Source: JAZDEY01 sp043808325 [NCBI: Candidatus Eiseniibacteriota bacterium] (GTDB lineage Bacteria > Arandabacterota > Arandabacteria > Arandabacterales). From it: a stretch of 11,712 nucleotides of DNA. The stretch covers positions 1 to 11,712 of the forward strand of contig JAZDEY010000012.1 in NCBI GenBank assembly GCA_043808325.1, in the 5' to 3' direction. Below, piece by piece: positions 1 to 11,712 of this stretch (the stretch's first letter is position 1; each line of letters begins with the position of its first letter). Position numbers and translations under genes: made by a program. The notes beneath the pieces were generated by a model. It was not told where the DNA came from and ran no database searches. It saw only the letters and a program-made list of their open reading frames with translations.

Positions 1-51
1 GCCGTTGAGTTTCATCTCATAGAGCTTTGTCATGGTCGGTTCATTCAGCAT
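1..51 (-). CDS. istB: IS21-family helper ATPase IstB, N-terminal 17 codons (runs off window)
   Basis: The minus strand from 51 reads MLNEPTMTKLYEMKLNG and continues beyond the window edge. This matches the usual opening of IS21-family IstB proteins, the AAA+ ATPases that help the IstA transposase choose and capture target DNA. The ATG at 49-51 overlaps the end of the upstream IstA frame by 7 nt (stop at 45-47), the tight coupling typical of istA-istB pairs. No ATPase motif lies inside the window, so the assignment rests on the N-terminal pattern and on its place after IstA. Confidence 0.7.
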   Translation of the reverse strand, partial: MLNEPTMTKLYEMKLNG

Positions 52-788
52 CTGTGTGTGCCTTTCTGTGATTTCAGGATTCCTTGAGTCCTTTGGAGCA
101 AGAACGACTCTTTAGGATCGCCAAGGTGCGACGATCTCGGCTCGGGCCATATCTTGCTATCCCCCTCTTGTGGGCCTCTCGCCGGCTCGGCCGGTGCGTA
201 GTAGTCCCGGCCGCGCAGGTTCTCATGCAGTATCCTGGGCCCTGGGGCGGTCTCATCGCTTGACGGCAACGGCTGGCGTTCGGCGCCGGTGGCCAGGATA
301 GACTTGATGCTGCCGTAGGTGCATGCATCCAGCAGCACAGCACGGCGGCAGGCCGCCTCGAGTCGCTCCCTGCCGTAGTGGCGGCCCAGCCTCATGATGC
401 CCAGGCAGGCACGATAGCCCTGCTCCGGATGCGGCTTGCTTTCGAGCAGCGTCGCCACGACCTCGCCGCACTCCCGTCCCACCTCCTTACTTGACCAGCG
501 CACCAGCCGGCTAGGTGTCCAGTCCAGGTGTTGTTGGTGAGACTTGGGTCTATGCGCCGGATCAGTCGTATGGCCGCCGCGCTTGTGGCTGCGTTGATGC
601 ACCGCCACGCGCTTGCCGCGGTAGAAGATCTCCACGGTCCGCACCCCCAGGCGAACTTCCACGGCCTGGTTGGCCAAATGATAGGGCACGCTGTAGCAGT
701 GCCAGTCGACCTGGACGTGGTAATCGATGTTGGCCTTGGCTTCTCGCCACACACCCAACTCATAGCGGCCAGCCGGCAAGGGTAGGAG
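45..788 (-). pseudogene. istA: IS21-family transposase IstA, C-terminal remnant
   Basis: The minus-strand frame holds only the C-terminal third of an IstA transposase. It begins at PLPAGRYELGVW, followed by the beta-rich Mu-transposase C-terminal segment (NIDYHVQVDWHCYSVPYHL, then VEIFYRGKRVAVH) and the helical tail up to LHENLRGRDYY. The HTH and the whole DDE catalytic core are missing. Upstream the frame meets a stop at 792-794, inside the neighbouring IS21 element, whose tip is at 789, so the gene was cut by that insertion or by a later deletion. A TTG at 777-779 is the first possible start but is really an internal leucine codon. IstA proteins commonly end near the HENxRGxxYY motif; here about 50 further residues follow, which is odd. 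It belongs to a different IS21 lineage from the two other IstA genes in this window. Confidence 0.85.
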
Positions 789-888: not shown

Positions 889-2364
889 ATGGTTACCGAC
901 AGACAGGTGAGGAGGCTTATGACGCTGATCCAGAAGGAGACGACGCTTTCGACCGCGGCGGCGAAGGCGGGTATGGACGAGAAGACGGCCCGTAAGTATC
1001 GGCGGTTGGGTCGGCTACCGAGCGAGCTCGGGAGGGGGCGCACGTACCGAACGCGGGAAGATCCGTTCGCCATTGTGTGGGAGGCGGTTCGAGAGAAGCT
1101 GGAGATCCATCCCGGCCTGGAGGCGAAGACGCTTTTTGAGGATCTCAAGGGCCGTTACCCGGATCGGTTTGGGGAGGGGCAACTTCGCACGCTGCAGCGG
1201 CGGATCAAACAGTGGCGGGCCCTGGAGGGTCCGGCGAAAGAGGTGTTCTTCGCGCAAAGACACCGGCCAGGAGAGCTTTGCCAGAGCGATTTCACTTCGA
1301 TGAACCCCTTGGAGGTGACGATCAACCGGCGGCTGTTCGATCATCTTTTCTACCACTTTACACTCTCCTACTCGAACTGGGAGACGGGGCGGATATGTGT
1401 TTCGGAGAGCTTCGAGAGCGTGAGCGAGGGTCTGCAGGCCGCGCTTTGGGAGTTGGGGGGCGTTCCCCGGGCTCACCGCACGGACCGGATGAGCACGGCG
1501 ATCAAGAAGACGGAGGACCCTGACGAGTTTACGGATCGGTACCGGGCGCTGCTTCGGCACTACGGACTCGAAGGGACCAAGACCAATCCGTCGAGCCCGC
1601 ACGAGAACGGAGACGTCGAGGAACGGCACCACCGGTTCAAGAAGGCGGTGGATCAGGCGCTCATGCTTCGGGGGAGCCGGGATTTTGAGAACCGAGAGGC
1701 GTATGCGGCGTTCTTGCGAGGCGTGCAGGGATCACTCAATGGAGCGCGCCGGGATCGGTTCGAGGACGAGCTTCCACTTTTGCATCGGTTGCCGGCGACG
1801 CCACTGGAGGGGTGCAAACGCCTGCGTGTTCGCGTGCGGCCATCGAGCACGATCAGCGTGGATCGCAATGTGTACTCGGTGGAGAGCCGGTTGATCGGGG
1901 AGACGGTCGATGTTCGGCTCCACGCGGAGAGAGTGGAAGTCTCTTACGGGCAGCGCCGGATCCATGAGATGGCGCGTCTGAGAGGTCGGGGCAAACACCG
2001 GGTGAACTACCGTCACATCATCGACTGGCTTCTTCGAAAACCGGGGGCCTTTGAACACTACGTCTATCGCGAAGAACTCTTCCCGACGAGCCGGTTCCGC
2101 ATGGCCTACGACTCGCTTCGGTACCATCAGCCCAAGACGGCGGTTCGGGAGTACCTCGTGATCCTCTACTTGGCCGCGCGGGAGAGTGAGACGGCGGTGG
2201 AGGAGGCGCTTCGCTCCGAGATCGCCGCGGGTGAGCCGATCCGGGCAGAGACGATTGAACGAATTGTCCGGTCCCGACGGGCGGCGGAGGAACCAGTGGA
2301 GGTCGTGATCGATGCCGTGAACCTGGGTCTTTACGATGAGCTTCTTGAAGGGGTGATGGAGTGA
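889..2364 (+). CDS. istA: IS21-family transposase IstA (element 1)
   Basis: This 491-aa DDE transposase cuts and joins the ends of the IS element. A helix-turn-helix lies at about residues 18-42 (TLSTAAAKAGMDEKTARKYR) for binding the terminal repeats. The rve/integrase core runs from about 125 to 260, with likely catalytic residues D134 (CQSDF), D199 (HRTDR) and E244 (HENGDVEERHH). A beta-rich Mu-type C-terminal segment follows, with SVDRNVYSVESRLIGETVDVRL around 320-345. Length and domain order fit full-length IstA. The ATG at 889 is well supported: AAGGAGG at 877-883 sits 5 nt upstream. Its stop overlaps the istB start by one base (TGATG), so the two are translationally coupled. I see no frameshift, so it may be functional. 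It is only distantly similar to the other two IstA proteins in the window. Confidence 0.93.
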   Translation: MVTDRQVRRLMTLIQKETTLSTAAAKAGMDEKTARKYRRLGRLPSELGRGRTYRTREDPFAIVWEAVREKLEIHPGLEAKTLFEDLKGRYPDRFGEGQLRTLQRRIKQWRALEGPAKEVFFAQRHRPGELCQSDFTSMNPLEVTINRRLFDHLFYHFTLSYSNWETGRICVSESFESVSEGLQAALWELGGVPRAHRTDRMSTAIKKTEDPDEFTDRYRALLRHYGLEGTKTNPSSPHENGDVEERHHRFKKAVDQALMLRGSRDFENREAYAAFLRGVQGSLNGARRDRFEDELPLLHRLPATPLEGCKRLRVRVRPSSTISVDRNVYSVESRLIGETVDVRLHAERVEVSYGQRRIHEMARLRGRGKHRVNYRHIIDWLLRKPGAFEHYVYREELFPTSRFRMAYDSLRYHQPKTAVREYLVILYLAARESETAVEEALRSEIAAGEPIRAETIERIVRSRRAAEEPVEVVIDAVNLGLYDELLEGVME

Positions 2365-3149
2365 TGACAACAACGTTGAAAAGCACGCTCCTCGAGGTGC
2401 TCAAAGAACTTCATCTGCCGACGGTGCGCACGTGCTACGAAGAAGAAGCCAATCGCTCTCGACGCGAGGCGCTCAGTTATGAGCAGTATCTTTTCGAGGT
2501 GATGAGTGCGGAACAAGAGGCGCGCCGCGAAAACCGAATTGCCCGACTCTTGCGAGAGTCTCGGCTGCCGCTCGAGAAAAACCTGGAGAGCTTCGAGATG
2601 AAGCGCATGCCGGGGGCGCTCTCGGCCCAGGTGCGTACCCTCCTTGACGGCTCGTTCCTCGACCGTAGAGAAAACGTGCTCGCCTTCGGTAACCCCGGAA
2701 GCGGCAAGACTCACCTTCTTTGCGCGATCGGCCAGGAGCTCATTCACCAGAGGCGCCGGATCTACTTCTGCCCCTGCAGCCTTTTGGTTCAGGATCTCCT
2801 CATCGCCAAACGGGACCTCAAACTCTCCCGACTCTTGAAGCACCTCTCCCGATACGACGCCCTCCTCATCGACGATATCGGCTACGTGCAACAAGGACGC
2901 GAGGAAATGGAGGTGCTATTTACGCTTTTGGCTGAACGCTACGAGCGCGGCAGTGTCATGATTACGAGCAACCTCCCCTTTTCGAAGTGGGAGGCGATCT
3001 TCAAGGATCCCATGACCACGGCGGCGGCCATCGATCGGCTCGTTCATCACAGCGTGATCCTCGAACTCAACGTCCAAAGTTACCGGTTGGGCGAATCCCA
3101 GAAGAAGAAGCTGGCTCGCTCCAAACCGTCCAAAGAGGGGGTATCATGA
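2364..3149 (+). CDS. istB: IS21-family helper ATPase IstB (element 1)
   Basis: This is a DnaC/DnaA-like AAA+ ATPase that partners IstA in target selection. Counting from the GTG at 2361, Walker A is GNPGSGKT (110-117), Walker B is LLIDDIGY (168-175), a sensor-like ITSNLPFSKW segment is at 201-210, and DRLVHH (225-230) holds the likely arginine finger region. The N-terminal helical part (about 1-100) is the IstA-interaction and oligomerisation region in this family. I prefer the ATG at 2364, which overlaps the istA stop (TGATG); the in-frame GTG at 2361 is the alternative. The length (about 261 aa) is normal. The C-terminal tail is lysine-rich. All motifs look intact. Confidence 0.94.
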   Translation: MTTTLKSTLLEVLKELHLPTVRTCYEEEANRSRREALSYEQYLFEVMSAEQEARRENRIARLLRESRLPLEKNLESFEMKRMPGALSAQVRTLLDGSFLDRRENVLAFGNPGSGKTHLLCAIGQELIHQRRRIYFCPCSLLVQDLLIAKRDLKLSRLLKHLSRYDALLIDDIGYVQQGREEMEVLFTLLAERYERGSVMITSNLPFSKWEAIFKDPMTTAAAIDRLVHHSVILELNVQSYRLGESQKKKLARSKPSKEGVS

Positions 3150-3186: not shown

Positions 3187-4194
3187 ATGGAAACCGTTCT
3201 TCCGCCCCAGAAGAGACTGAGGGCAGTTGAACACCTAAATCGAAGAAACGGGAGTTCTAATCGTCGTCGGCAGGAAAAAGTAGTTGTCGTTGAACATACG
3301 CCCAAGAGTTCCAATGCTATGCCAGTTCGACTAAAGGGTTTCCTCACATGGCGACCACAACACTACAACCTATCAATGAAAAACTTGAATACAGGCTTAA
3401 TTCTCTCTGTCAAGGGCATACCCTATTGCACGCTGAGCTTGGAAGAGTATGGCGCAGCGACTATCCGCACTGCCCAACCTGGTGAGAAGAGTACGTGCTT
3501 GATCGTCGAATGCGACTCAATCCAGGACGAGATGAACATTTCGAGGAGTGCCCTTGTCGACTCGCCGGAGGCGGTCGAGCTCAAGAGGCTCGTGACGGAC
3601 CTGATTCAGAGAGTGGAGTCATCCGCACCATATCGTGCCTTCCGCCTCCTCCCGGAGCAGGAGAAGGCAGAGAAGCAAGGCGGAATCCTCGCTGAGGAGA
3701 AGAGGAAGATTGAGCTGCCTGAGCAGAACTGGGTCGTTCTGGAACGGGGCGGCGAGAGTCCGATGATCTTGCTCCGCGAACCCCAGAACGAAACGGAGGT
3801 CAATGCCCTCATCTGGAAACTGGAGGCGCTGGGAGCCCTTCCGTTCGAGACCTTCACAACACTGGCCTATATTGGTGCGGCGAAAGGCCCTGATCTCCTT
3901 GTGAATTTCCAGGAAGACAAGACGAGTGAGCCGTTCCGTGCCACGGTTATTGAGGTCGAGAACAACTTCTACAACTACAAGACCCACGGTCATACACCTT
4001 CTCAGTATCCAAAGGTGATCTGCTGGGACCTTCCTGCCAGTGGTAGGAAGGCGAAGATTAACAAGACTCAGAAGGCCTACAAGTTCGCGCTTACCTCCGA
4101 TGATTATCAGGTCCACATCTATGCCATCAGACACATGGATGGGATCAGGGTACTATCGCGGGAGGAGCTGAAGAAGAGAGGTATCAACATCTGA
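3187..4194 (+). CDS. 5'-truncated GHKL/Hsp90-like ATPase with C-terminal PD-(D/E)XK-like nuclease domain
   Basis: The open frame gives 335 aa, but roughly the first 28 codons lie in the right end of IS21 element 1, so native sequence begins near EKVVVVEHTP (3274). Residues about 35-150 resemble the transducer part that follows the ATP-binding domain in GHKL/Hsp90-like proteins: a strand-rich run, then DEMNISRSALVDSPEAVEL (114-132), recalling the conserved 'N-x-SRS' region. The ATPase domain itself (N, G1, G2 boxes) is absent. Residues about 196-283 look like a compact nuclease: an acidic helix (NETEVNALIWKLEALG), GPDLLV (234-239), VIEVENN (254-260), HGH (267-269) and KVICWDL (276-282). That is a GxD...ExE/K...H order as in PD-(D/E)XK folds, with Glu where Lys is usual. 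ATG 3319 is a more plausible restart than 3187, which has no ribosome-binding site. The gene is probably dead. Family assignment is from motif pattern only. Confidence 0.6.
   Translation: METVLPPQKRLRAVEHLNRRNGSSNRRRQEKVVVVEHTPKSSNAMPVRLKGFLTWRPQHYNLSMKNLNTGLILSVKGIPYCTLSLEEYGAATIRTAQPGEKSTCLIVECDSIQDEMNISRSALVDSPEAVELKRLVTDLIQRVESSAPYRAFRLLPEQEKAEKQGGILAEEKRKIELPEQNWVVLERGGESPMILLREPQNETEVNALIWKLEALGALPFETFTTLAYIGAAKGPDLLVNFQEDKTSEPFRATVIEVENNFYNYKTHGHTPSQYPKVICWDLPASGRKAKINKTQKAYKFALTSDDYQVHIYAIRHMDGIRVLSREELKKRGINI
3250..3265 (-). repeat. Right-end inverted copy of the IS21 element 1 terminal repeat
   Basis: GGGAGTTCTAATCGTC at 3250-3265 is the reverse complement of the left unit (795-812) with one mismatch over this stretch. 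A weaker second copy (CTAAATCG, about 3228-3240) lies inward. This marks the right end of the element and places the first codons of the downstream open frame inside IS DNA. Confidence 0.75.
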
Positions 4195-4315: not shown

Positions 4316-5044
4316 TTAGCGCCTCCTGACGCGAGCCAGCGCGTGCAACTTGCCAGCATCGTCCTTGTACTTCCAGAAATGCCAGCCGTTCTTGCTGGTG
4401 TTCGTTATGGCCTTGGCGGCGCTAGTGGGATTGAGGTAAGAGCTATCGCCCATTGTAATCCTCCCGCTAGTATGAACAAAGGCCTTGTATTCCTTTCCCT
4501 TGTACTTGGCGTAGAGCGTCTTCCCGGTTGGGAACAACCCCTTGAGCGGACGGCTTGCGCGCCTGCCTCTTAGGATCTTCCGCCCCCCCCGCCTCGCCAT
4601 TCCGTGTATTCCAGTCCCGCGCGTCCCGGTCGAGCTCGGCAGGCCGAACAGCGTCTTGAATTCCTCTCTAGCTCCAGCGGCTACCTCCCTTTTCAACAAG
4701 GGAAGGAGATTCTTTGATCCTCCAAGCTTGCCTCTGACCCTATTCGCGGAGGGGGCTGCTATTCTGATAAGGAGCGATTCGACTTCGCGGATGTGATCCT
4801 CCTTGCGAATCATGTAGAGGCTAAAGCGATCCCATTTGTCTCTGTGGCGATCCTTCATATGATTGTGGATACGGCTCTTCAGATTGGTCGCCAGCCCGAC
4901 ATAGTACAGGGTGTTCCCGTGATACAGAGCATAGACCCCATGGCGGCTGCCGATAAGATCGGTTATCTGATTCCTATAGTGATCAAAGACACTGCTGTCG
5001 ATCTTCTCGAGATACCCACGAACAATCGCTCTTGCTTTCGCCAT
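4316..5044 (-). CDS. GIY-YIG nuclease with C-terminal RAMA domain
   Basis: This 242-aa protein joins a nuclease to a putative modified-DNA reader. The GIY-YIG domain spans about 34-115: GVYAL (36-40), YYVGLATNLKSRIHNH (47-62), R58, the metal-binding Glu in REVESLLIR (E88) and N101 in SANRVRGKLGG. A low-complexity basic linker (about 136-166) leads to a RAMA-type domain (168-242): LFPTGKTLYAKYKGKEYKAF, then SSYLNPTSAAKAITNTSKNG and WHFWKY. RAMA domains are named for their association with restriction enzymes and adenine methylases and are predicted to sense modified DNA. I chose the ATG at 5042-5044 because GGAGG lies 6 nt upstream; an in-frame start 33 nt earlier (5077) lacks this. It is co-oriented with the SIR2 gene, 230 nt downstream of its stop, so they may share a transcript. 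All key nuclease residues seem present. Likely role: cutting foreign or modified DNA. Confidence 0.82.
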   Translation of the reverse strand: MAKARAIVRGYLEKIDSSVFDHYRNQITDLIGSRHGVYALYHGNTLYYVGLATNLKSRIHNHMKDRHRDKWDRFSLYMIRKEDHIREVESLLIRIAAPSANRVRGKLGGSKNLLPLLKREVAAGAREEFKTLFGLPSSTGTRGTGIHGMARRGGRKILRGRRASRPLKGLFPTGKTLYAKYKGKEYKAFVHTSGRITMGDSSYLNPTSAAKAITNTSKNGWHFWKYKDDAGKLHALARVRRR

Positions 5045-5274
5045 CGCATTCCTCCGGCGGCTTTGGAAAATACTCACTGCGGCGTGCTTGATCCAGCGCA
5101 GAGAAGAATGCCACTCGCGGGAAGTACAGCAGGTAGCAGTGAGCCCTCACTCATAGGCCGTTTCTTGATCTGAACCGAACGTGTACGGGACCTCGTGCAG
5201 ATAACCTCGAGTGAAGTGCGTTTGCGACTGACGACCAAGTCGTCCACACATTGTCGTCGAACGATCCTCCCATA
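5045..5274 (-). other. Intergenic gap between the SIR2 and GIY-YIG genes
   Basis: The 230-nt gap holds the GIY-YIG ribosome-binding site (GGAGG, 5051-5055 on the minus strand) and a perfect 6-bp hairpin, GACGAC CAA GTCGTC (5230-5244), about 30 nt past the SIR2 stop, without a T-run. The best promoter-like pair on the minus strand (TGGATC, 17 nt, TATTTT) is weak. I see no small gene here. Confidence 0.35.
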
Positions 5275-7980
5275 TCACCTTCTCTTCTTTCCTCTGCTCT
5301 GAGCCCTCCGGCGCCTCTGTTGTGCCTTCCGGCGCTTCTCGAGCTGTTTGGATCTAAGCCTCACTAGTTCCGCTTGCTCCTTCTCGGAAAGCCTTCTGGA
5401 GGTTTCGGCTTGCTTAGCCCTTTCCTCGGCGACTTTTCTCTTTTCCGTTTCTTGAGAGGCCACATAAAAGGCGAATTGCATTGAATAAAACGGCTTCTGC
5501 TCATCCGGCACACGCTCGAAGTCTTCCCTAAAGTGCGCGAATCGCTCAGGCCCCAGCGCCTGGATGTATTTATCCCTCTCCTCATCGATCCGCATCCTAG
5601 CCTGACGGACCATCCGCGAGGCGTACTTTGATATCGTAGCCTTGTCAATTATGTCGAATCCAGCGTAGTAGAAACTTTGGATCATGCATTCGTACAGCAG
5701 GTCAGGGCCCACCGCGCTGCTAGAGAAAAGGGATAGAAAGCGGTACAGCGCCTCCGGATACCACGATATTTTGGCCTTGTCGCCCTTGAGCTTGTTCAGG
5801 ATTCCACTCTGCGAAAGGAACGCTGCATTCCTGTTTCTGCAAATCAAGACGACCTCTGCCTCAGCGATGCACTGCGATTCGCCCCGCCAAGTTCCGTACC
5901 TGTTCCGCAGTTCTTGGATCTCGTTTGTGATCGCATCCCGCTCGGCCCACAGGTCGCGGCGCTCATCCGCGTACGTTCTGAAGTCAACTATGTCGATCTT
6001 CAAAGATTGAATCTTGGCCCTGATTGAATCGCTGAGGTTCTGCCTGTAATCCGCACTCAGGCACTGCTTCATGTATTGGTCAAGAGAGGGTGCTCCCTGG
6101 CCCAGAGACCACTTTGTGAATCCGTCGAGAAAGAGATTCTGCTTAAAGCCCGGGCCGGACATGGCAGCTTGGAGCAACAGCGGGCTGTCCATGGGAGCCT
6201 CACGGAAGTTCGCCACGGCCCACCACGCATGGTCACGGACCTCTTCGAAAAGCCGCTCGGTAGTCACGCACTGGAATCCAAGAACTTTCATCCGGGCCAG
6301 TAGGTCTGCCGCATAGCCATGGTTCTGACAGTCAATTGCCAGGATGGGCAAGAGAACACTCGAATCAAATACCCAGGCCTGATCTTGGGCTAACTTAAGT
6401 CTCTCAGTTGAACAGCGCGGCTCTAGGCCCAACGCATGATACGCGAAGTATCCCTGAGACAGCGCAGCCAGATAGTGTTTCATCTCTTCATTTGGTCTCA
6501 GGATGATCTCAAGCATGAGGTCGCCAAACGCTGGCCGAGGGTCTCCGTCGCCTAAATCCGCCGAGCCAGCATTGATTATCTCGAGAATATCCGTCGCGTC
6601 GGACACGTCAACCGGATCAGTCATGAGAATCGATCTGGCGATTTCCATGCCACGCTTCCGGAATGCGCGGACGAGGCCATCCCTCAGGGCATCAATTATC
6701 GACTTGCGCTGCCGATCGTCCAGGCTTGGGTATTGCTGTCTGAGAAACAGATGGCAGGAGTTCTGGAATTTCTCTAATACCAGCTCACGTTCGGCCCTGA
6801 TCTGAGCTATGGCCATCATACCCTTTTGCTCAAAGACGACGATGTGACCATTCTCTGCGAAACTTATGTAGCCGGGCGAATAGAGTGAGTCAAGCGCCTT
6901 ACCGAGAGCAGTCGGGTCTACTCCTGTGGCCGCGAAGATCTTTCCGTTGAGCATTTCCTGCAATGTACTCACGGTCATCCGTGCTCCCGGCTCCATCTCA
7001 GATAGCATACCGAGGATCACAGAGGCATATGTCCTTTCGATGCAGGCATCCGAGGTCCCATCTAGCCGTAGCTGTGTGAAGATGTGCACTGATGCCGCGG
7101 CCTCAGCCACAGACTCATCTATGGGCTCCAGGCCTATACTCGAAGAGTTTCTCTTTGCGATGAACGGATCATAGCGTCTCATTAGTCTCGAGAGTTCCTG
7201 GTGAGCTCCATCTCCGTTGGAATATGGTATGATCCGAATGTTGAGGTGTTGGTAGTACTCAGTAATATCCTTGGCAGGAAAGTCAGCAGCAAACATGAAA
7301 ATCGGATGGTCAGGGGCGGCTATTCCCCTGGCTCGCTCGAGCTGATCGCGCAGGTCTGGGTCCGACGCGCTATATCCTATCAATACCAAGTCGACCATCT
7401 TCAGTACCGCAAGCAACGTGTCACGCCAGTACTGTCTTGCCTGACCGCTCTTGAAATCCTCGTACTGCTCTTCGGTTAAGACGATGTCCTCGGGACCCGT
7501 GGTGTCGCCGTGAATCTTGACGATGAGGTCGCGGCTTGTTGAATGAACTACCTTCATATCATCAAGTGAGTTTCTGCGCACGGTGGCGGGCACACCTTGA
7601 GCCTCCAGGTATGACCTTAAGAAATCATCGAAGTTCGTTGTCAGATAGCAGGAAAAGGGCCACGACGAGATGTACTCGTAGATGCGGCCTTGCCGAGGGC
7701 GTACCTTCAGGAGCTCATCAATGACCCGCATCAGCCCTTCTTTCCCACAGGCCTTCTGCGCATAACTGAATACCCGGGGGTAATTCCCTTTATCCAGAGC
7801 AGCCTGGCACTTCATTATTGCTGCGTCATCGTACCTAATCCTTGAAAGCTCCTCGATGACATGTTGTGCCATCTGCCTCCACGATGGCAGCCCGAGCTCC
7901 CGTGACGGACCGGACCCGACCAGTGCGAAGCACCGCCCCGAGCTCACGGCACGGACCAGATCCCTATCGATCACTGACAC
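5275..7980 (-). CDS. SIR2-domain protein with winged-helix-like, PIN-like and basic coiled-coil regions
   Basis: This is a large (about 901 aa) probable defence effector; numbering is from the GTG at 7980. The SIR2 domain spans about 6-272: GSGPS (22-26), LTTNFDD (113-119, N116), KIHGD (155-159, H157) and GYSASDPD (202-209). These are the NAD-binding and catalytic motifs of the SIR2-like NADases seen in systems such as Thoeris ThsA and DSR. Residues about 312-392 look like a winged helix, and about 402-452 is helical. Residues about 535-725 resemble a PIN nuclease: WVFDSSVLLPIL (D539), TTERLFEEVRDH (E579/E580), AEAEVVLICR (E707/E709), then FLSQS, where a further acidic residue is often found but is missing. 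The tail (about 842-901) is a Lys/Arg/Glu-rich coiled coil ending in a run of arginines. The frame opens at a TTG (8034), but that lies in the promoter -10 region. GTG 7980, with GGGGG about 10 nt upstream, is preferred; GTG 7974 is possible. Confidence 0.85.
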   Translation of the reverse strand: MSVIDRDLVRAVSSGRCFALVGSGPSRELGLPSWRQMAQHVIEELSRIRYDDAAIMKCQAALDKGNYPRVFSYAQKACGKEGLMRVIDELLKVRPRQGRIYEYISSWPFSCYLTTNFDDFLRSYLEAQGVPATVRRNSLDDMKVVHSTSRDLIVKIHGDTTGPEDIVLTEEQYEDFKSGQARQYWRDTLLAVLKMVDLVLIGYSASDPDLRDQLERARGIAAPDHPIFMFAADFPAKDITEYYQHLNIRIIPYSNGDGAHQELSRLMRRYDPFIAKRNSSSIGLEPIDESVAEAAASVHIFTQLRLDGTSDACIERTYASVILGMLSEMEPGARMTVSTLQEMLNGKIFAATGVDPTALGKALDSLYSPGYISFAENGHIVVFEQKGMMAIAQIRAERELVLEKFQNSCHLFLRQQYPSLDDRQRKSIIDALRDGLVRAFRKRGMEIARSILMTDPVDVSDATDILEIINAGSADLGDGDPRPAFGDLMLEIILRPNEEMKHYLAALSQGYFAYHALGLEPRCSTERLKLAQDQAWVFDSSVLLPILAIDCQNHGYAADLLARMKVLGFQCVTTERLFEEVRDHAWWAVANFREAPMDSPLLLQAAMSGPGFKQNLFLDGFTKWSLGQGAPSLDQYMKQCLSADYRQNLSDSIRAKIQSLKIDIVDFRTYADERRDLWAERDAITNEIQELRNRYGTWRGESQCIAEAEVVLICRNRNAAFLSQSGILNKLKGDKAKISWYPEALYRFLSLFSSSAVGPDLLYECMIQSFYYAGFDIIDKATISKYASRMVRQARMRIDEERDKYIQALGPERFAHFREDFERVPDEQKPFYSMQFAFYVASQETEKRKVAEERAKQAETSRRLSEKEQAELVRLRSKQLEKRRKAQQRRRRAQSRGKKRR

Positions 7981-8033
7981 TGGTGAGATGCCCCCATGGT
8001 TATCCGTCGATGCTTCCACCGAAACACCACACA

Positions 8034-8061
8034 ATCATACGGAGGCGCACAAACATGTCAA
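8034..8061 (-). promoter_or_regulatory. Sigma70-like promoter for the SIR2 gene
   Basis: On the minus strand TTGACA (8056-8061, a perfect -35) is followed after 16 nt by TATGAT (8034-8039, 5 of 6 to the -10 consensus). Transcription would start near 8027, giving a leader of about 47 nt before GTG 7980. The -10 overlaps the upstream TTG at 8034, so that codon would not be in the mRNA and cannot be the start. No operator dyad overlaps the promoter, which suggests constitutive expression. Confidence 0.7.
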
Positions 8062-8304: not shown

Positions 8305-8400
8305 ATGCTGGTGAAGAGACAACTGAAGAGTCCTGCGTTCTGCCTGAGCCCGGAGGAGATCAAGAAGATCATCTATACGGCCGACAAGTTCGGGGATTGA
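8305..8400 (+). pseudogene. Possible tyrosine recombinase/integrase, N-terminal fragment cut by IS3
   Basis: The frame has a ribosome-binding-like AGGA a few bases upstream and reads 31 aa, ending at a TGA formed where IS3-family DNA appears to begin. The segment FCLSPEEIKKIIYTADKFGD resembles the start of the catalytic region of XerC/phage-type integrases, where 'Ls.eEi.kii.aa..f.Dr' is common. The rest of the gene would lie beyond the right window edge, on the far side of the IS3 element. An integrase beside a defence cluster is common in mobile islands. The fragment is very short, so the family call is tentative. Confidence 0.35.
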
Positions 8401-8947: not shown

Positions 8948-9805
8948 TCAGCCGAGCGAGGATCTTGCCTCCTTCGGTGGTCTTCCCCGGGGTCGGTCTA
9001 CCTTCTTGTCCTTGCCGGCGACTGCTGCCTTGAGGTTCTCGGGCATCAGGGCGGCATGTTCTCTGAGTCGATAGCTGTTGCCGTCGATCTGGATGACCAC
9101 AGCGTGATGGAGCAGCCGGTCCAGGAGCGCGGCGGCGATCACGCGATCGCCGAAGATGTCTCCCCACTCGGCAAAGCCCCGGTTGCTTGTAAGGATTATG
9201 GCTCCCTTCTCGTAGCGGGCGTTGACAAGTTGGAAGAACAGGTGTGCACCACCCCGCTCCAGCGGCAGATAGCCCACCTCATCGATAATGAGAAGGGCCG
9301 TGCGTGTGAGGAAGCGTATGCGTTCGGGCAGCGTTCCCTCTCGTTCGGCCTTCAAGAGTGAGGCGATGATCTCAGCCAGGGTGGCCAGATAGACGCTCTT
9401 GCCGGCCTTGATGGCCTCGACTCCCAGCGCGATTGCCAGATGGCTCTTACCCGTTCCTGGCGGTCCCAGTAAGTGGACCACCTCCTTGCGTTCGACGAAT
9501 CCCAACTGGGCCAGGGTCAGTATCTGGTTGCGATCGACCGACGGTTGGAATGAGAAGTCATACTGCTGGAGCGTCTTCACCTGGGTGAGTCGAGAGGTCA
9601 TCAAGGCCACCTTGACCCGTCGGTTCTCTCTCATCGTGAGTTCTTCACTCAAGAGGAGATCGATCGCTTCAAGTGGGGAGATCTCTCCCTGCTCGAGCCC
9701 CTTGACCGTAGTGTCGAGCATCTCCAGGGCCCTCGCCATCTTAAGCCCCACCAGGTTAAAGCGGACACGTTCCAAGGTGCTGGCAGATCCCGTCTGAGCG
9801 CTCAT
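8948..9805 (-). CDS. istB: IS21-family helper ATPase IstB (element 2)
   Basis: This 285-aa AAA+ ATPase works with IstA in IS21 transposition. Walker A is GPPGTGKS (114-121), Walker B is ALLIIDEVGYLP (170-181), TSNRGFAEWGDIF (206-218) is the sensor segment, and DRLLHH (229-234) follows. The N-terminal helical region (about 10-105) is the family's oligomerisation and IstA-contact part. The tail is basic with an AT-hook-like PRGRPP (about residues 273-278). The ATG at 9803-9805 overlaps the istA stop as ATGA, with a GGGGGAGG ribosome-binding site just upstream. It appears intact and is clearly of a different subgroup from the IstB at 2364-3149. Confidence 0.96.
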   Translation of the reverse strand: MSAQTGSASTLERVRFNLVGLKMARALEMLDTTVKGLEQGEISPLEAIDLLLSEELTMRENRRVKVALMTSRLTQVKTLQQYDFSFQPSVDRNQILTLAQLGFVERKEVVHLLGPPGTGKSHLAIALGVEAIKAGKSVYLATLAEIIASLLKAEREGTLPERIRFLTRTALLIIDEVGYLPLERGGAHLFFQLVNARYEKGAIILTSNRGFAEWGDIFGDRVIAAALLDRLLHHAVVIQIDGNSYRLREHAALMPENLKAAVAGKDKKVDRPRGRPPKEARSSLG

Positions 9806-11073
9806 CGCCTCCCCCTTCCACTCTGGGCAAGGACGCCGGCGATAGCCTCATAGACCTCCAACGACCGGCAGCTGACCTGCTCACCAGGCAAGCCCAATGG
9901 CTCGGCAGGGTCCCGCTGGCGGCGTGTCCTGGCATTGCCGGGCGGTGGCCAGAGCCGATGCCCGGAGGCCACCCGACGTTGGCCGCTACCTTCCAGTACG
10001 GGATGCACGGCGACGAGCGTGCCCGCATCGAGGATGGAGACCTCCCTGGCGGTGACCTGGACCTCAACTACTCTGCGCCGCGTGGTATCGGGGACGCTAT
10101 AGAGATTACCATCCACCGAGACCATGCCGTCGCGGCTGATCCGCCGCTCCATCTTGAGCACCGAGGCGAAGGCAAGGGCTGGAAGCGGCAAGAGCACCGG
10201 CTGCTCCTCGGCAAATGCCTCATCCACCAGGCGCTTCGTCGTCCCGTGGAGCCGCCGATTGGCCACACCGGCGAGCCACTCGCCGAGTTGCCCATTCAAG
10301 TCGTCCATATCTCGGAAGGCCCGGCCCATGAAGAAGTCCTGCCGCACATACCGATAGGGCCTCTCGATCTTGCCCTTGGTCTTCGCTCGCCTCTTGGCGC
10401 ACGCCCGGGGAATGAAGCCGTAGTGCTGCGAGAGCGCCAGCAGAGTCTTGTTGTAGATGATCCCGCGCTCCCGGCCCTCTCCCGTCACGGCCGTCTTCAT
10501 CTGGTTGTAGAGGATCTCCCGGGGCACGCCGCCGATGGCCTCGAAAGCCGCCATGTGGCAACGCACCACCGTAGCCAGGTCCTGCCGCCACACAAATCGG
10601 CAGAACAGGTGGCGGCTCGAAGCCAGGATCAGGCTAAAGAGCCACACGTGCCGCTCCTGGTCGGGAGCATCAGGGAAGTAGATCCTGAAGAGCGCAAAGT
10701 CCACCTGCGCCTGCTTGCCCGCAGGTGTCTCAAAGCGATGCTCCCAACCCGTCTCCTTCGGCGGACGAATCTCCCAAATGAAGTCCTTCACCATCGTGTA
10801 TCCACCCGTATAGCCCAACTGGACGATCTCACGCAACAGCCTGATCGCACTGAGCTCCGGGTAATCCCCTAGACGTCCCTCGATATAGCCCTTGAAACCA
10901 TCCAAGACACTGCCCCGAGGCTGGCGCGGGCCGTAGACCGGTCCCTCCAAGCCACGGCGAAGATACTTCCGCACTGTCTTACGACTCAGGCCCATCTGCC
11001 GGGCGATCGCCCGCATCGACAGGCCCTCTCTGTGAAGCTCGTGTATCATGAATATCTCCCCATGCTTGAGCAC
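9802..11073 (-). CDS. istA: IS21-family transposase IstA (element 2), probable catalytic Asp-to-Asn change
   Basis: This transposase is about 423 aa when started at GTG 11073, preceded by AGGGGG at about 6 nt. The open frame extends to a TTG at 11175, but family members usually begin near the VLKHGEIFMIHEL sequence. Numbering from 11073: HTH at about 10-38 (GLSMRAIARQMGLSRKTVRK), rve core at about 115-260, with D125 (AQVDF) and E237 (GKIERPYRYVRQ), then the beta-rich C-terminal domain (VSVDGNLYSVPDTTRRRVV). The second catalytic aspartate, in the family's usual ILYDNMKTAV-type motif, reads ILYNQMKTAV here (N190, codon AAC at 10504-10506), a one-base change from GAC. If read correctly, the protein is inactive even though the element's ends and duplication are intact. 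It overlaps istB by 4 nt. Confidence 0.94.
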   Translation of the reverse strand: MLKHGEIFMIHELHREGLSMRAIARQMGLSRKTVRKYLRRGLEGPVYGPRQPRGSVLDGFKGYIEGRLGDYPELSAIRLLREIVQLGYTGGYTMVKDFIWEIRPPKETGWEHRFETPAGKQAQVDFALFRIYFPDAPDQERHVWLFSLILASSRHLFCRFVWRQDLATVVRCHMAAFEAIGGVPREILYNQMKTAVTGEGRERGIIYNKTLLALSQHYGFIPRACAKRRAKTKGKIERPYRYVRQDFFMGRAFRDMDDLNGQLGEWLAGVANRRLHGTTKRLVDEAFAEEQPVLLPLPALAFASVLKMERRISRDGMVSVDGNLYSVPDTTRRRVVEVQVTAREVSILDAGTLVAVHPVLEGSGQRRVASGHRLWPPPGNARTRRQRDPAEPLGLPGEQVSCRSLEVYEAIAGVLAQSGRGRR

Positions 11074-11179
11074 GCGATACCCCCTGACGTTGGCCAAAAC
11101 GGCCAACACAGGGTCCCAGTAACTCGCACTCCGTGACAACCTCTTTCTACCCCGCCCCTTGGGTCCCCCTACCAACCCA

Positions 11180-11233
11180 GGGTGGTATACTTTTCAGTCG
11201 CCACTTATGGGGAGTTTTACACCGCCATTGACA
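11180..11233 (-). repeat. Right terminal repeat of IS21 element 2
   Basis: Read inward on the minus strand it begins TGTCAATGGCGGTGTAAAAC and ends AAAAGTATACCACCC (11180-11194 on the plus strand), matching the left end at 43 of 54 positions. It lies upstream of istA, so it probably also carries the istA promoter. Confidence 0.88.
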
Positions 11234-11238
11234 CCCGC
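11234..11238. repeat. Target-site duplication of IS21 element 2, right copy (CCCGC)
   Basis: This matches CCCGC at 8870-8874 exactly and abuts the CATTGACA tip of the element. Confidence 0.92.
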
Positions 11239-11712
11239 ACACCCCTCGCCTCCAGACGACCCGTGAACTCCTCGGCTGTAAACTGTGCCCCCTGGTCGGT
11301 GTTGAAGATCACCGGCCTGGCCTCGCCCAAGGCCCGCTCCAATGCCGCCACACAGAAGGTGCTCTCCAGGGAGTTCGACAACTCCCACGCCAGAACATAC
11401 CGACTGAACCAGTCCATCACCGCCACCAAGTACTGGAACCCACGACGCATCGGGATGTAAGTGATGTCGGCGCACCACACTTCGTCCGGAGCCCTTATAG
11501 CAAGCCCCCGCAGCAGATACGGATACACCCGGTGCTCCGGATGTGGACGGCTCGTGTGAGGACCCGGTACCACTGCCTGAAGCCCCATCACCTGCATCAG
11601 ACGCGCTACTCGCTTCTCGTTCACCGGCCAACCCAGGTCCCGCAGCCAATCGGTCATGCGTGGAGAGCCATAGAAGGGCCGCCTCAAGTACAATTCGTCG
11701 ATCCGGCGCATC
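11234..11712 (-). pseudogene. IS3-family transposase OrfB, 5' part (runs off window, cut by IS21)
   Basis: This half carries the HTH_21-like region (MRRIDELYLRRPFYGSPRMT), the linker (VNEKRVARLMQVMGLQAV) and most of the rve integrase core, with the first two catalytic aspartates in WCADITYIP and NTDQGAQFT. The third residue, Glu, is in the 3' part at 8658-8874. With the IS21 element removed there are 35 residues between the second Asp and the Glu, the IS3-family D(35)E spacing. As it stands the frame runs 5 codons into the IS21 end and stops at 11217-11219. The ATG at 11709-11711 is internal; the true start and OrfA lie beyond the window. Confidence 0.9.

Follow-up and report, generated by a model that had tools for sequence, protein, structure and literature searches.

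A candidate antiviral protein that joins a SIR2 domain to a conserved winged-helix–PIN core, and relatives with an Mrr-like N-terminus

The nearest published plan to that of the protein described here is that of the TPR-GreA/B-C-PIN proteins, which have swappable N-terminal effectors, SIR2 and restriction endonuclease (REase) domains among them, and a rapidly evolving core (PMC8195603); they are also named in PMC9503650. PIN domains are further found in the defence systems DS-3 and DS-5, neither of them a toxin-antitoxin pair, which depend on their PIN residues (PMC13092281), and a 2026 BREX survey lists PIN endoRNases among the less common BREX accessories (PMC12839542). The words 'SIR2' and 'sirtuin' are absent from the main texts of PMC13092281 and PMC12839542, and a fusion of SIR2, winged helix (wH) and PIN was not found described in the literature searched, preprints and supplements excluded. 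We report such a SIR2-wH-PIN protein of 901 amino acids (aa), encoded on the minus strand (5275..7980) of an 11 712-nucleotide stretch of DNA, contig JAZDEY010000012.1 of a Candidatus Eiseniibacteriota bacterium; the whole of this stretch is called the window below.

By its sequence, the protein belongs to a modular effector-wH-PIN family, which is unnamed in the libraries searched and is a variant of the effector-plus-PIN conflict proteins. Computation gave the order of the domains, the PIN fold, the conservation within the SIR2 branch of the catalytic residues of both sites, a repeated placement in restriction and BREX operons, and an Mrr-like swap at the N-terminus. We give an even chance to the explanation that this is a one-protein antiviral abortive-infection effector, made of a conserved core (winged helix, connector, PIN and tail) and an N-terminal killing domain that can be exchanged, in this case a SIR2 NADase. 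An autoinhibited abortive-infection effector would fit because the protein is large, is encoded by a single gene, has two domains of toxic type and is found in several genomes without a recognised partner; its activity, trigger and autoinhibition are what we infer. The core would bind nucleic acid through the winged helix, the PIN and the basic tail and keep the protein silent, until an infection cue or the failure of a neighbouring restriction system released it. SIR2 would then drain NAD+, the PIN would cut RNA (tRNA or mRNA), and the infected cell would halt before phage maturation. A more specific version, for which our leaning falls a little short of even, is that one chain holds two enzymes with different toxic actions, an NADase (SIR2) and a ribonuclease (PIN), under one shared firing core, and that elsewhere the same core, its PIN dead, has an Mrr-type nuclease to fire, the warheads being swapped and the second one retired if unneeded. 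That both sites act here ('two warheads') is a prediction. If true, a modular antiviral family would deplete NAD+ and cleave RNA by means of a single chain, with the first effector swapped, and the residues named below would allow the two activities to be separated.

The gene is intact, its minus-strand frame being open from 8034 to 5275; the plus strand of 5275-8061 contains 26 stops. The longest open reading frame (ORF) begins with TTG at 8034 and encodes 919 aa. Since the N-termini of relatives match from about aa 19 of this ORF, the start is probably the GTG at 7980 (901 aa). Residue numbers below follow the 901-aa protein unless the 919-aa ORF is named, and those used in a first-pass annotation of the stretch, made from the letters alone, are consistent with the same start. 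That annotation had placed one protein at 5275-8061: a single intact chain is indeed present, but on the minus strand, and 8061 lies beyond an in-frame stop of its frame.

The N-terminus (about aa 3-275; 7156..7974, minus strand) is, on sequence grounds, a SIR2 domain of the ThsA/KomC kind. Pfam SIR2_2 (PF13289) matches the query over its cutoff (E = 6.7e-23), covering aa 111-251. The top PADLOC models, ThsA (5.6e-20) and LmuA (2.1e-17), match the N-terminal third only (ThsA, aa 24-237 of the 919-aa ORF), and Dsr1 (1.5e-9) also matches the SIR2 part. Among solved chains the nearest is 7uxt_B ('USG protein', 8.2e-13); KomC (5.8e-12) and ThsA (2.7e-10) come next. All the SIR2 motifs quoted in the first-pass annotation are there, and both catalytic residues stand in conserved columns: N116 of the TTNFD motif (codon 7633..7635) is Asn in 8/8, and H157 of the HGD motif (codon 7510..7512) is His in 9/9, of the SIR2-type rows covering the site.

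Downstream of SIR2, the C-terminus was left unnamed by Pfam, PADLOC, NCBIfam and PHROGs searches, and the best matches of a core profile among solved structures (0.13 and 0.23) were not accepted. The C-terminal 615 residues were modelled from ten rows (local number = residue minus 286): the query, four relatives (loci L028, L029, L033 and L034), L031 in two pieces, and a core piece each from L030, L032 and L035. A single-sequence AlphaFold2 model of the whole ORF, with a mean predicted local distance difference test score (pLDDT) of 40.3, was discarded. In the retained model, ten-residue pLDDT means ranged from 61 to 85 in the winged helix and were mostly 76-89 in the PIN, with local dips to 50-68. 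The winged helix (about aa 311-383; 6832..7050) is supported by the model elements, by VIA-align rows such as Rv0047c, RosR and PadR (Z of 8.2-9.4) and by weak Pfam HTH_45 matches in two of six core rows (best E = 0.0043). A predicted helical connector follows (about aa 385-532; 6385..6828), two stretches of which have pLDDT <50. The last part (5278..5706) is modelled as helices and a coiled coil and ends in a basic tail, with 19 K/R versus 4 D/E in the final 40 residues. The winged-helix-like and basic coiled-coil parts proposed from the letters were both recovered in this way.

The reading of aa 533-750, approximately, as a PIN-like domain (5731..6384; a helical insert occupies about aa 600-659) is supported by profile search, conservation and predicted fold. 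The segment earlier quoted as PIN-like is in the sequence and is no mere coincidence of pattern, being conserved among relatives and modelled as a PIN fold. VIA-align, a second look at Foldseek's rows which covers only the folds listed there, aligned the model with VapBC chain 5x3t_B (Z 11.1, root-mean-square deviation 2.7, 132 aligned of 137). Model residues 243-476 are covered by 28 of the 50 VIA-align rows shown, 16 of them titled VapBC, VapC or PIN; the remaining 22 belong to the winged-helix side. In one relative (L115), Pfam PIN_3 (0.067) and PIN_12 (0.28) appear below cutoff, both where the PIN is expected. Whole-genome searches with the family profiles brought up, besides members, short proteins (L119 at 1.4e-4; L123-L127 at 9.8e-7 to 8.8e-4; L131 at 4.9e-4). 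All seven are Pfam PIN proteins; as short PIN proteins they were rejected as family members. A core profile built from SIR2-type members only (A6), run against a set of 322 sequences, matched six of seven PIN controls at 3.9e-5 to 0.098, all six scoring better than the best of 300 shuffled members (0.18), the controls being mostly non-random, with six of the seven chosen by an earlier family profile (A10). The seventh, a VapC-like gene at L037 (Pfam PIN 9.9e-16) chosen without A10, was unmatched by A6 at E 10.

The catalytic columns were compared in 15 members, 11 of SIR2 type and 4 of Mrr type. The putative first PIN acid, D539 (codon 6364..6366), is D in 12/15; the second, E580 (6241..6243), is E in all 15; and the third, E707 (5860..5862), is E in 11 and D in the other 4. 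All three positions are acidic in 11/11 SIR2-type rows. In the model, D539 comes after the first strand, and the helices that carry E580 and E707 follow the second strand and precede the last one, respectively, which is the PIN order of elements; from this order only, we infer that the three may form one metal site. The acid set named in the first-pass annotation (D539, E579/E580 and E707) thus holds for D539, E580 and E707 but not for E579, whose column lacks conservation in the 15 rows. Neither a model lacking a PIN-like fold nor a failure of these three acids to be conserved, the outcomes that the annotation had named as refuting its PIN reading, was observed. E709 is E in 10/15 rows.

Unforeseen in the first-pass annotation, four relatives (L115, L118, L122 and L128) carry an Mrr-like N-terminus on the wH-PIN core. 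L115 is recovered by A6 at 3.7e-15 and its N-terminus matches Mrr_cat (Pfam, 3.7e-5); L118, L122 and L128 were added via wider profiles. The N-termini of these three have E, DxGxD and QxS in common with L115 (L122 without the usual Lys after QxS), none of them has a Pfam Mrr match, and a PDB profile search for the Mrr-like N-terminus was empty. One Pfam match and the shared motifs are the basis on which we call these N-termini Mrr-like. When a SIR2-only profile was used as a circularity control, L115 (1.3e-16), L128 (8.7e-14) and L118 (1.7e-13) were found again, and L122 was missed (3.4), so that L122 is a member only via L118 and L128. The cores of the three L118-type members, compared with A6 profile against profile, gave a probability of 97.0 over 454 columns, and of 98.3 over 529 when run globally. 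In a tree the four Mrr types occupy one side; the support is weak (71/48) and the branches are long, which is compatible with one origin of the Mrr type or with several. L118, L122 and L128 represent a natural active-site loss in the PIN.

The gene recurs inside restriction and BREX loci. L029 has the order PglXI end (4.6e-200), SIR2-PIN gene, BrxHI (E 0), PglZ (E 0) and BrxA (1.3e-105), which is BREX type 3. At L036, BrxC (E 0), an AlbA-like gene recognised by eye and PglXI (E 0) precede the start of the SIR2-PIN gene, the rest of which is found on another contig of the same genome (L140) with an N-terminal part of PglZ (4.9e-115) and BrxA (2.6e-97). The SIR2-PIN start falls within a few bases of the PglXI end at both loci (L029, 1271-1276; L036, 7996-8001). 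This abutment suggests one operon, perhaps with translational coupling, inside BREX type 3. An HmaA-like helicase (2e-187) and an HNH protein (6.1e-9) stand before the start of the gene at L032, and its remainder is accompanied by an HmaB-like methylase (6.4e-131) on another contig of that genome (L132); at L133 a SNF2-type helicase (HmaA, 1.9e-94) is directly upstream. L135 has a type I restriction enzyme (1.8e-142), the SIR2-PIN gene, a REP-type transposase (by eye) and a type I methylase (3.4e-174). The gene of L135 is in two frames (8347-8355), a frameshift or an assembly error. An AAA ATPase and PtuB (4.6e-67; Septu) precede the gene at L030, and a PDC-M30A protein (2.3e-106) is downstream of it at L033. 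If our explanation is true, the presence of SIR2 genes in operons of BREX type 3, of Hma-like systems and of type I restriction would be accounted for by a possible role as backup killers when restriction fails.

Several observations weigh against a killing effector with a working PIN. The quality of the model is middling (mean pLDDT 67.8; predicted TM-score, pTM, 0.51). Foldseek alone, queried with the model, returned nothing at E 0.001 or better (best 0.13), and neither the query nor any of six core rows had a Pfam PIN model listed at E 10; the fold search proposed in the first-pass annotation spoke for a PIN in VIA-align but not in Foldseek alone, and the profile search proposed with it gave no direct Pfam PIN match. 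The fourth position usual in PIN domains, here S725, holds Ser instead of an acidic residue in most SIR2-type rows. Three of the four Mrr types have lost the first PIN Asp (G in L118, G in L122, C in L128) while the second and third acids are kept, so PIN catalysis is dispensable for some uses of the core. Finally, no restriction or BREX operon was recognised by eye at L028, L034, L130 and the four Mrr-type neighbourhoods (L134, L136, L137 and L138), few neighbours having been scanned with PADLOC; near the Mrr-type genes that scan found only a kinase-type protein (L134) and a reverse-transcriptase piece (L138), and L136 was seen to have a GIY-YIG protein.

The lost Asp is the best argument for an additional non-catalytic role of the PIN, which may be partly a sensor or an RNA-binding module. 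Carried further, it leads to the strongest alternative, possible but well short of probable in our view, that only the N-terminal domain kills, as a replaceable warhead, and that the wH-PIN core serves for sensing or docking and uses its PIN fold to bind RNA, tRNA or DNA with little or no cleavage. The retention of the core with two unrelated N-termini (SIR2 and Mrr-like) would agree with this, as would the G, G and C at the first position in the three Mrr types. On the other hand, 11/11 SIR2-type rows and L115 retain the first two PIN acids, with E or D at the third, and a protein that did no more than bind would have little reason to preserve the triad. An abortive-infection effector can also be set against an accessory regulator of restriction systems, acting for example on BREX or restriction gene expression instead of killing. 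The gene is often inside restriction or BREX operons and its product has a winged helix, as such a regulator might, but L028, L034 and L130 were without such neighbours by eye and the protein has two conserved catalytic sites of toxic type; we consider this alternative improbable.

The TPR-GreA/B-C-PIN proteins (PMC8195603) resemble the family in combining a constant PIN-bearing C-terminal region with a variable N-terminal effector, here SIR2 versus Mrr-like. They differ from it in that the core found here consists of winged helix, helical connector and basic tail, TPR and GreA/B-C being undetected. No TPR or GreA/B model was listed at E 10 in Pfam for the query and six core rows, the published core being fast-evolving and the connector only moderately modelled, and PF20698 (PIN-TPR-GreABC) was likewise unlisted for these sequences. 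PF20698 was found in 0/12 genomes carrying the SIR2-wH-PIN family at E 0.001, and in 0/57 genomes of the phylum of G005; a control of 14 genomes gave one match, below cutoff. These negatives are weak tests because the published core evolves fast. That SIR2-wH-PIN is a divergent member of that family (PMC8195603) is very unlikely, since the shared logic of a variable N-terminal effector and a constant C-terminal region ending in a PIN is opposed by the unlisted TPR, GreA/B and PF20698 models, weak as these tests are, and by a model with a winged helix and long helices.

DS-3 and DS-5 (PMC13092281) are comparable to the present protein as PIN-based phage defence outside toxin-antitoxin pairs, but the PIN of DS-3 is split between its two ends and DS-5 is a two-protein system. 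VapC-type PIN ribonucleases have the PIN fold and three conserved acids, whereas the protein described here has 901 aa, a helical insert and mostly Ser at the fourth position; no VapB-like neighbour was noticed in the window, where no search aimed at VapB was made. DSR1 is likewise a large single protein with an N-terminal SIR2, but the Dsr1 match stops at aa 292 of the 919-aa ORF. Thoeris ThsA and Kongming KomC are among the nearest SIR2 proteins by sequence, and the catalytic Asn and His are kept; however, KomC is a SIR2 protein of 264 residues, and the C-terminal 600 residues of our protein match neither. ThsA has a C-terminal SLOG domain and a ThsB partner. The SLOG part of ThsA was unmatched, and a TIR match was absent among the eight window proteins scanned with Pfam.

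Relatives were sought in a scan seeded by an alignment of SIR2 domains (A4), which gave 389 relatives among 545 candidate stretches; only the best 80 were retained. Full-length relatives (29-41% identity) come from Stygiobacter, deltaproteobacterial symbiont, Treponema and Phycisphaerae genomes, with partial ones besides. All of the top ten loci (L028-L037) belong to the SIR2-wH-PIN family; their titles are Stygiobacter, Olavius-associated proteobacterium Delta 1, Myxococcota, Nitrospirae, Phycisphaerae (two), Treponema, Planctomycetota, Proteobacteria and Nitrospira. The gene is whole in L028, L029, L033 and L034 and nearly so in L031, which has a frameshift. Contig ends or breaks interrupt the others, and the parts missing from L032, L036 and L037 are on other contigs of the respective genomes. 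Profiles added further SIR2-type members at L113 (SIR2_2, 7e-21), L117 and L130 (SIR2_2, 7.4e-15). A match at L111 (E 4.4e-4) with two internal stops was set aside as chance.

The SIR2-wH-PIN family is rare. Six phylum samples (297, 294, 296, 282, 198 and 148 genomes; 1515 in all, including seven seed genomes) yielded new places beyond the seed genomes in 9/1515 genomes, a rough figure because the profile varied between samples (A6, A7, A10). Three of the nine are of SIR2 type (G457, G857, G1448), four of Mrr type (G316, G780, G1251, G1508), and two have C-terminal pieces only (G151, G427). An exact-peptide genome scan found no relatives, and none were found in viral contigs scanned with the whole query, the C-terminus, A5 or A6; viral-contig scans with A1 and A2 matched the SIR2 part only. 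The C-terminus was unmatched in phage records. Its sole plasmid match (H41, a Burkholderia plasmid, E 0.01) was rejected as chance because it overlies an ABC-transporter substrate-binding gene, recognised by eye in L001.

In the window itself the SIR2-PIN gene is outside a BREX operon; IS21 genes lie on either side of it, and its other neighbours are a GIY-YIG/RAMA gene and an unknown gene. The GIY-YIG/RAMA gene (4316..5077, minus strand; Pfam RAMA 5.2e-11 and GIY-YIG 6.6e-5; PADLOC candidate PDC-S14, 1.1e-18) is 197 bases downstream of the SIR2-PIN gene on the same strand, and its predicted product could be a separate restriction enzyme for modified DNA or a partner of SIR2-PIN. The GIY-YIG protein at L136 is encoded about 2 kb from the Mrr-type gene. 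For a 335-aa protein (3187-4194, plus strand), searches of Pfam, NCBIfam, PADLOC, PHROGs and plasmid records were without a match; a D...ExE arrangement recognised by eye in the C-terminal half of this protein resembles a PD-(D/E)XK nuclease. Two distinct IS21-type istA/istB pairs were identified with Pfam (889-3149, plus strand; 8948-11175, minus strand) and a transposase-like piece by eye (45-779, minus strand); these flank the genes and give the stretch the look of a small island bounded by insertion sequences. Another transposase piece, with Pfam HTH_21 and rve matches (11217-11711, minus strand), reaches the window end.

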